Source: Priestia megaterium NBRC 15308 = ATCC 14581
GTDB lineage: Bacteria > Bacillota > Bacilli > Bacillales > Bacillaceae_H
DNA: 64,000 nt
Direction: 5' to 3'
Assembly: GCF_000832985.1 (NCBI RefSeq)
Contig: NZ_CP009920.1
Location: 1,116,001 to 1,180,000 of the forward strand
The notes under the pieces: model-generated
Seen by the model: the letters and a program-made list of their open reading frames with translations, nothing else
Databases searched by the model: none
Told to the model about the DNA's origin: nothing
Position numbers and translations under genes: made by a program
In this document: positions 11,196-13,511 of the stretch, piece after piece
Numbering within the stretch: position 1 is the stretch's first letter
Layout: every line of letters starts with the position of its first letter

Positions 11196-11765
11196 TTAGT
11201 CAACTGATTCTTCTTTTTTGTATGTATAAATAGAAACACCAATGATACCGTACGTTTCGCTTTTTATTTTTTCAAATAAACCAATCTCATCATCTAACTG
11301 TACATCATGAGAATGCTCCGCTACAATAATTCCTGTTTTTGCTAGAAGATTTTCTTCACTTACCGTTTCGATAAGCGCTTTCAACTTTTGTGCTTTATAC
11401 GGTGGATCAAGCAAAAGTAAATCGACAGTCAGCTCCCTTTTCTTTATCGCTTTCAGTGCACGTTCTGCATCATTTCGATACACTTCAGCGCGGTCTTCTA
11501 ACCGGCAAGATGCTAAGTTTGCTTTAATCGTCTGAATCGCTTTGCCATCCCGATCCACAAAAATGACTTTATCTATTCCTCGGCTTAGAGCTTCAATTCC
11601 CAAGCCACCGCTTCCACCGAACAAATCAAGAGCTGTTCCACCTTCAAAAAACGGTCCAATCATATTAAAAATAGCTTCTTTCACCTTATCTGTTGTAGGG
11701 CGGGTTGAGTATCCTGGAACCGCCTTTAACGCATGGCCTTTATATAAACCTGCTACTACTCTCAT
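11196..11765 (-). CDS. rsmD: 16S rRNA (guanine(966)-N(2))-methyltransferase RsmD
   Basis: SAM-dependent methyltransferase for G966 of 16S rRNA; 189 residues. The SAM loop DLFGGSGGLGIEALSRG lies near residues 45-61 and the catalytic DPPY motif of N2/N6 methylases is in LLLLDPPYKAQ near residue 120. The N-terminus MRVVAGLYKGHALKAVPG matches the family start; ATG 11765 has AAGG about 11 bases upstream, while the GTG three codons earlier is too close to it. It is ylbH in B. subtilis. A structured leader family (ylbH leader) is known upstream of this gene in Bacillus, so the 611-base region upstream deserves a covariance search. Confidence 0.94.
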   Translation of the reverse strand: MRVVAGLYKGHALKAVPGYSTRPTTDKVKEAIFNMIGPFFEGGTALDLFGGSGGLGIEALSRGIDKVIFVDRDGKAIQTIKANLASCRLEDRAEVYRNDAERALKAIKKRELTVDLLLLDPPYKAQKLKALIETVSEENLLAKTGIIVAEHSHDVQLDDEIGLFEKIKSETYGIIGVSIYTYKKEESVD

Positions 11766-12125
11766 CCTTATCACTACCTTACTTTTACTTCCTTATTCTT
11801 CATTATCCTAACATATTTTGAATTACAAAGACTAGCAAAAATCCTCAATTTATTCAATGCTGTATACATTCTATGCAGTAACCAGCAGCTTGCTTTTATG
11901 CTGGACTTTTACGGCCGTGTCCTTAGATACACTGATTCTTTTCTAAAAGATACACCTATGAAGATCATTCGGCATTTCGTTCATAGAAGAATTCCTTTAC
12001 TTTAATATGTCATAACAAACGTAAATTTACCCTTTTTCTCTGTTATGTTATCAGTCTTTTATGTATTAAAAAGTGAATTTCACAAGACAGGTATATGAAC
12101 GTTTAAAACGGACATACTGACTAGT

Positions 12126-12300
12126 AACAACATCATCTAACCGATGTTGTTGCCAACCGCGGAGAAGACTTACGTTTCCCCATAAGTTCTTCCTCCGGTT
12201 TCTCCTCTCCCTTTGCCTTCATCAAGGTGCTTGTAATCGCAGAGGTGATTACACCCCTTTATTGAAGGGCCCTACAATGAGTAGTTGTAGGGATTTTTTT
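12126..12300 (+). ncRNA. Candidate structured RNA / terminated leader
   Basis: The region between rsmD and a plus-strand gene folds into consecutive stems. First, AACAACATC pairs with GATGTTGTT (12126-12134 with 12143-12151), 9 bp perfect. Second, CCG-GGAG-AGACTTA pairs with TAAGT-CTCCGG (about 12158-12198) with small bulges. Third, CCTTCA/TGAAGG encloses GGT/ACC and GTAATC/GATTAC (about 12217-12268). A terminator with seven T follows. No open reading frame explains it. It may be a cis-acting leader of the downstream gene or a free small RNA. I recognise no riboswitch class. The strand is set by the terminator. Confidence 0.5.
12270..12300 (+). terminator. Plus-strand terminator ahead of DUF7147 gene
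   Basis: CCCTACAA and TTGTAGGG form an 8-bp stem with a 7-base loop, then A and seven T. It lies 77 bases before the start codon at 12377 with no gene to terminate upstream on this strand, which points to a leader or small RNA. Confidence 0.82.
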
Positions 12301-12376
12301 ATTTACTCTTAAAATATTCAGTGATACATTAAACTACGTGAGTTTGCTTTTTTAATACATAAAGGGGGAAATACAT

Positions 12377-12763
12377 ATGATTCAGCGTTTTATTGAGCTC
12401 GGAGAAGGGTATTCAGATATTTATGAGCTGTTAGAGATTGTCAAAAGCAACAAACACCGTCTTGCTCATCTTATTATGCTGCGAACAGGAAAAGAAGATC
12501 GACAAGTAGCTTCTTTTGTCGCTGTCTTGCATCCAACAGCTGAAGGGAATTTCCAACCGCTTTACGTTTGCCGAGAAGGAATTGTTTTAAAACAAAACGA
12601 CAGCAAGCGCGTTGAGTTATTTAAACGAGCTGCTGAGGAAGCGGGAAAAGAAATTGTGGTACTCGATGTCAAACCATCTACTACATTTCCAGAAACAGCA
12701 CTCTACTATCAGCACCTTATTGGCATTTTGCGAATGAACCGCTTTATTCCGCCAATGCAATAA
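12377..12763 (+). CDS. DUF7147 family protein, function unknown
   Basis: 128-residue soluble protein with no signal peptide or membrane segment. It resembles the conserved Bacillaceae family DUF7147, which has at times been labelled methylthioribose kinase without support; nothing kinase-like is visible. Visible features are a hydrophobic N-terminal helix region (FIELGEGYSDIYELLEIV), a beta-rich middle (VASFVAVLHPT) and a C-terminal segment LYYQHLIGILRMNRFIPPMQ. AAAGGGGGAAATACAT precedes the ATG. It is a single gene reading against its neighbours, between rsmD and ylbG, and B. subtilis has no gene at this point. Expression may be set by the terminated leader at 12126-12300. Confidence 0.7.
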   Translation: MIQRFIELGEGYSDIYELLEIVKSNKHRLAHLIMLRTGKEDRQVASFVAVLHPTAEGNFQPLYVCREGIVLKQNDSKRVELFKRAAEEAGKEIVVLDVKPSTTFPETALYYQHLIGILRMNRFIPPMQ

Positions 12764-13114: not shown

Positions 13115-13319
13115 ATTTAGTTCCCCTTTTGCATACGTTATATTGGTTTTCTTTATCATAAATTCTTTTATATGAAGTAGGTGCTTTATGTATGAATTTA
13201 GATGATATCTGGATGCTCTTTCTTACTCATTTTAACGAGCAGAGAGCTATTGAACAAGTCATTTTCAAAAAAATCACAAATATACCCTTTTTGTATATAA
13301 ACACATCAATTAAGCGTAG

Positions 13320-13356
13320 AAAAATAGATGAGCTTCTAGAAGCTTCATCTATTTTT
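13320..13356 (-). terminator. Strong terminator between ylbF and ylbG
   Basis: AAAAATAGATGA and TCATCTATTTTT enclose a second pairing GCTTC/GAAGC, 17 bp in total with one bulge. It ends ylbF transcription and can act on both strands. The rest of the 397-base gap 13115-13511 holds only spurious frames. Confidence 0.85.
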
Positions 13357-13511
13357 GCTACATCCAATACAAATGCTACGTGGCGCTCAACTTTTGTCAG
13401 AAGTCAGCATCTTACTTATGTTTATCAGCATAGGTTTTACGTTCCACAGCGTAAAATGGCCTGCTGCGGAAATTCCTGTGCTGATTGCGTTCGATTTATA
13501 CAGTGAACGGC

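Follow-up and report, generated by a model that had tools for sequence, protein, structure and literature searches.

The window, i.e. the whole 64-kb stretch of DNA that was analysed, carries the gene rsmD (ylbH; 11196-11774, minus strand) and, on the plus strand, a gene (12377-12763) assigned to DUF7147 by Pfam at 182 bits. The gap between these two flanking genes holds a structured element, referred to below as csfG, with the following features:

12091..12095, plus strand: putative sigma-F/sigma-G-like promoter, -35 element GTATA, from the pattern and the known consensus
12110..12119, plus strand: putative -10 element GGACATACTG, from the pattern
12126..12300, plus strand: csfG, very probably the gene of the small RNA CsfG, about 175 nt, with the start placed by promoter spacing and the end by the terminator
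12126..12151, plus strand: 5' hairpin with a perfect 9-bp stem (AACAACATC, 12126-12134, and GATGTTGTT, 12143-12151), outside the Rfam model
12157..12302, minus strand: match to the Rfam family RF00516 'ylbH leader', antisense of csfG, scoring 100 bits where the gathering score is 50
12160..12197, plus strand: central hairpin with a bulge and the loop UCCCCA at 12177-12182, all alignment cells paired (100%)
12189..12201, plus strand: complementarity to 16S rRNA, AAACCGGAGGAAG, over 13 nt, unexplained and possibly accidental
12195..12211, plus strand: invariant CCGGUUUCUCCUCUCCC, the same in 123/123 loci, its single-stranded part being 12199-12211
about 12216..12268, plus strand: variable hairpin closed by CCUUC/GAAGG, with an inner stem at 12232-12253 and covariation of the closing pairs
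12270..12300, plus strand: intrinsic terminator, stem 12270-12277/12285-12292, then A and seven T (12294-12300), seen in the sequence

The three hairpins—one perfect over 9 bp and two compound—and the terminator with seven T described for this gap by the sequence-only reading were all found, and csfG has its own terminator. Between 12100 and 12320, the plus strand has a folding energy of -64.6 kcal/mol; 200 dinucleotide shuffles average -43.6 (z -5.1), and none of them reaches so low a value. Two of the three C-rich stretches in csfG—the loop UCCCCA (12177-12182) and 12199-12211—are predicted to be unpaired at a probability of 0.87, a feature typical of small RNAs of the RoxS and FsrA type, and the stretch between them, CUUCCUCC (12189-12196), is mostly paired (unpaired probability 0.14).

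Concerning known families, the suggestion to check the opposite strand for the ylbH leader family proved sound, the Rfam search yielding RF00516 on the minus strand as the sole match at gathering score within the window. Other weak Rfam matches in the gap (rliA and others) score far under their gathering scores and were set aside. The RF00516 model opens with AUAAAAAAA and then a G+C-rich hairpin, i.e. with the reverse complement of the intrinsic terminator, and therefore looks drawn on the antisense strand; it is, moreover, devoid of the 5' hairpin of csfG. Rfam files the family as a cis-regulatory leader of rsmD (ylbH), and in favour of such a minus-strand leader, the covariance match does sit on the rsmD strand, the minus strand of the gap also folds better than its shuffles (z -3.8, 0/200 as low) and csfG adjoins rsmD in 109/109 loci (69/69 and 40/40).

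The strand was approached through an alignment of the gap from relatives, in which the compensatory changes to be looked for were present in all four helices. In this alignment of 61 sequences, 96.4% of the cells are paired on the plus strand and 93.0% on the minus strand, slid versions of the same alignment giving 38-54%. Over its 35 pairs, G-U exceeds A-C on the plus strand by 93 to 20, a bias that speaks against a leader of rsmD, and 20 of the 35 pairs change on both sides compared with 9.6 in shuffles, the structure having been partly read off the same sequences that tested it. By helix, such changes affect 7/9 pairs of the 5' hairpin, 2/13 of the central hairpin (both stemming from the single sequence L033), 4/5 of the variable closing stem and 7/8 of the terminator. 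A strand-neutral stem finder applied to 110 loci, a set from which two loci without a T run and duplicate segments were dropped, counted 216 G-U against 88 A-C (p 1e-13, ignoring relatedness).

The signals for the beginning and the end of a transcript were compared in 70 loci, namely the window, 60 from the order and nine more of the family. A promoter pattern based on the generally known sigma-F/sigma-G consensus, composed post hoc after the loci were seen, matches upstream of csfG on the plus strand in 65 of the 70 loci, as against 37/2512 control windows on the same strand and 44/2512 on the other; the spacer between the -35 and -10 elements is 14 or 15 nt in all 65. We infer a forespore promoter of the sigma-F/sigma-G type. 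On the minus strand, a sigma-F/sigma-G-like site precedes the RF00516 match in 1/70 loci, the comparison being confined to this type of promoter. At the plus-strand end, a run of at least five T is present in 70/70 loci; on the minus strand, such a run past the 5' hairpin is found in 8/70. The sequence-only reading was thus right in that the structured RNA is genuine, ends in a terminator of its own and lies on the plus strand.

The arrangement of the neighbouring genes was compared in the 109 loci, which were drawn from strong RF00516 matches and thus say little about diverged copies elsewhere. In 105 of them csfG points away from rsmD, and in four—L038, L114 and L115 from one genus and L096 from another family—it is inverted. 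The inverted copies retain terminators and promoter-like sites, L038 being among the 65 loci matching the pattern and L114, L115 and L096 having been judged by eye. The sequence-only reading had also considered the element a riboswitch-like leader of the DUF7147 gene, and a leader or attenuator of this kind would suit the window itself, where 76 nt separate the terminator from the start codon that follows on this strand. A constant downstream gene on the same strand was, however, not observed: DUF7147 follows csfG within the fetched 1-1.5 kb in only 34/109 loci and in 0/36 loci from other orders (by tblastn queried with the DUF7147 protein of the window, which could miss distant relatives), and in the genus g64 csfG points away from it. 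Control of DUF7147 is thus very unlikely to be the role of the element. Owing to the inversions beside rsmD and the presence of DUF7147 downstream in just those 34 loci, the unit appears not to serve either neighbour as a cis-element. The DUF7147 gene, located between csfG and ylbG in the window, is found at this place in only a part of the order. As a side observation, the 104-codon plus-strand frame at 13192-13506, which has no Pfam match, recurs near csfG in 23/69 related loci with 33-97% identity and is therefore probably a real gene.

An RNA on the rsmD strand upstream of rsmD is accordingly at odds with the strand bias, the terminator, the promoter and the loci in two lineages where the element is inverted. 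A northern blot of B. subtilis, described in PMC3574147, likewise failed to detect the ylbH-strand RNA, while its reverse complement gave a strong signal and was equated with the CsfG of Marchais et al. 2011; an Hfq pull-down in the same organism, described in the same paper, also assigns the element to the CsfG strand rather than to a ylbH leader. Two further papers list the ylbH motif (PMC4342826) and report that the ylbH leader was sought with no expression found (PMC4634765). A cis-regulatory leader of rsmD, as filed by Rfam, is in our view highly improbable. The sequence-only reading had named a clear opposite-strand match to a known family as a ground for abandoning its plus-strand RNA. 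Such a match did occur with RF00516, but since this family has itself been filed on the wrong strand, the match tells what the RNA is and does not refute it.

The conserved part of csfG contains an open frame as well, and the RNA might thus encode a 13-codon peptide, MLLPTAEKTYVSP, from 12144, either alone or as a dual-function RNA. There is, however, no ribosome-binding site just upstream of this frame and, judged by eye, a one-base deletion shifts it in L014, L048, L060 and L076, GTG replaces ATG in several aligned rows and the third codon positions look no less invariant than the others. Such a coding function appears hardly credible.

With regard to sporulation, 299 genomes drawn evenly from the order were searched with RF00516 and scored for sigma-F with TIGR02885, those below the cut-offs being inferred from tallies and E-values and six being assigned by their absence from the result table. 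RF00516 exceeds its cut-off in 269/288 genomes with sigma-F and in 0/11 without it (Fisher p 1.5e-12, ignoring relatedness), so that in this sample csfG is confined to endospore formers. The 11 genomes lacking sigma-F represent six genera of four families, and one of them, G261, has an RF00516 match at E 3e-4, under the cut-off. The 19 exceptions with sigma-F, which count against this link, comprise 10 genomes of the genus g43, five of g91, one that is 80% complete and three with weak matches. Applied to the 30 genomes without an over-cut-off RF00516 match, our own model, R1, found three, identical to the three with weak matches. The 15 genomes of g43 and g91, all with sigma-F over the cut-off, match neither RF00516 nor R1, which means that csfG is either dispensable or unrecognisable there. 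In the other 27 of the 30 genomes, rsmD could be located in 26; a search for C-rich motifs in about 430 nt next to it gave nothing in 20/26, a degenerate csfG-like stretch in L146 (genome G054) and a single short motif in each of L141, L143, L155, L156 and L159. The loci L139-L153 belong to g43 and g91, i.e. to sigma-F-positive genomes without a csfG match, and the csfG-like stretch of L146 lies between rsmD and DUF7147.

The distribution extends beyond the order. Class-wide, RF00516 matches 183/299 genomes, 152 of them over the cut-off. Across the phylum, R1 matches 19/199; 14 of these, all weak, were fetched and 13 have the core and RsmD beside it, the remaining one, L135, having neither. 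An exact 30-nt pattern scan of named genomes yielded 70 loci, including Moorella, Tepidanaerobacter, Dethiobacter, Syntrophomonadaceae and Hydrogenibacillus; seven contigs in two of the searches of the relatives have equal lengths and are probably the same. RsmD lies within 600 nt, in divergent orientation, in 57 of these 70 pattern loci and was undetected in 13, in four of which the contig extends for less than 700 nt on that side. At gathering score, RF00516 misses 18/18 tested pattern loci, most of them named as clostridia-type lineages, and R1 recovers 15/20 at E 0.01. Two csfG-bearing records, L185 and L244, the former with RsmD beside it, are metagenome-assembled genomes titled Desulfovibrio sp.; Desulfovibrio is not known to form endospores, so these titles may be wrong.

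Based on the above results, the element very probably represents the ortholog of CsfG, a known small RNA of the developing spore, encoded on the plus strand; it would be transcribed away from rsmD and act in trans. The sequence-only reading had offered a small RNA as its alternative to a leader, and this is the alternative that was borne out. Its statement that the RNA fits no riboswitch class known to it gave way, as RF00516 matches the minus strand at 100 bits and the structured RNA itself is already known, namely as CsfG. The conserved sequence and fold as well as the position beside rsmD (ylbH) on the opposite strand agree with CsfG, and so does, at the level of sequence only, the sigma-F/sigma-G promoter. 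In B. subtilis, CsfG is reported to be expressed in the forespore under sigma-F and sigma-G (PMC8216469). Other papers list CsfG at ylbG-ylbH with a length of 107 nt in RNA-seq of B. licheniformis (PMC3871023), say in passing, citing the 2011 paper, that it regulates sporulation mRNAs (PMC12456014) and report no identified target and, upon disruption of such small RNAs, no obvious sporulation defect (PMC9147052). It should be pointed out that CsfG is named S547 in PMC8216469, while PMC9147052 uses that name for another small RNA. Comparison across genomes supports the predicted fold and strand, the independence from both flanking genes and the absence from genomes without sigma-F; the inversions on the rsmD side in two lineages and that absence lend independent support to CsfG as an autonomous sporulation RNA.

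As to its mode of action, the 17-nt CCGGUUUCUCCUCUCCC is identical in 123/123 loci (110 and 13) from several classes and is preceded by UCCCCA in 115/123 of them. Its single-stranded part (12199-12211) is likely to be the pairing site. The exposed C-rich stretches, i.e. the loop UCCCCA and the invariant UUUCUCCUCUCCC, could base-pair with purine-rich ribosome-binding regions and, in the manner proposed for RoxS and FsrA, block translation in the forespore; our analysis slightly favours this pairing mechanism. Antisense sites were sought in eight genomes by a near-perfect pattern search with the complement of the invariant 17 nt at up to three mismatches. With no mismatch, each genome contains a single site, that of csfG itself. 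In the P. megaterium genome, no antisense partner besides csfG was found at up to two mismatches, which counts against the pairing mechanism, and at up to three there are three sites against five in the reversed-pattern control. Two mismatches are shown by one site in G058 and three sites in G042. Six of the other seven genomes exceed the reversed-pattern control, four of them still doing so after csfG is set aside, an excess that could reflect some extra partial partners. The weak second matches of the RF00516 search in the taxonomic family, entertained as CsfG paralogs, were discarded, 7/11 being RoxS/RsaE and the other four falling under every Rfam gathering score.

Instead of many mRNAs, the main partner of CsfG could be one invariant molecule, such as 16S rRNA or a protein; this would concern the mechanism and not the identity of the RNA. 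Besides the identity of CCGGUUUCUCCUCUCCC in all loci from several classes, such a partner would suit the constancy of rsmD as a neighbour, this gene being known for its 16S rRNA methylase. Also in its favour, CUUCCUCCGGUUU and 16S rRNA show 13 nt of complementarity in each of the three genomes examined, a length reached by 2/1000 shuffles. For comparison, a RoxS stretch has 8 nt of complementarity with 16S, and among 79 chunks of the window used as a control one reached 13 nt; at 37 nt, it is taken to be the csfG locus read from the opposite strand. The 13-nt pairing is, however, kept in 116/123 loci and broken in 7/123; the change in L033 partly follows the hairpin, and in G306, from which L121 comes, the 16S is unchanged. 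The energy of the CsfG-16S duplex is reached by 6/200 shuffles, 23S being nearly equal (-36.2 vs -37.1 for 16S), and the complementary 16S stretch lies within a helix of the folded subunit. The complementarity is thus a weak lead and probably a by-product of the pyrimidine-rich core. A single invariant partner is therefore improbable, and the same low probability holds for its example, an action of CsfG in the forespore on the 30S subunit or on 30S assembly, which would draw on the invariant 17 nt, the rsmD neighbour kept through inversions and the 16S complementarity. Pairing with ribosome-binding regions remains the reading we lean towards, and what the extreme conservation of CsfG serves is a testable question.

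As far as the literature found shows, with Marchais et al. 2011 known via papers citing it, the inversions beside rsmD, the sigma-F test in 299 genomes, the strand error in Rfam and the missed relatives outside Bacilli are new. The entry RF00516 has the wrong strand and function and lacks the 5' hairpin; in Rfam release 15 it is still filed as a cis-regulatory leader, antisense to CsfG (12157-12302 in the window), and any annotation built on it consequently reports a ylbH leader instead of a sporulation small RNA.

In comparison with known systems, the element thus shares its DNA with the ylbH leader of RF00516 (100 bits) but occupies the opposite strand and possesses the 5' hairpin that the model is without. 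With RoxS/RsaE (RF01820) and FsrA, it has in common the unpaired C-rich stretches (PMC4409812), although these RNAs are other genes at other loci, and RF01820 has no match to the window at its gathering score. Its closest counterpart, as compared through the citing papers, is CsfG of B. subtilis, likewise positioned between ylbG and ylbH (rsmD) on the strand opposite to ylbH, with C-rich regions and—as far as the nucleotide pattern goes—a sigma-F/sigma-G-type promoter, the difference being the DUF7147 gene that here sits between csfG and ylbG.
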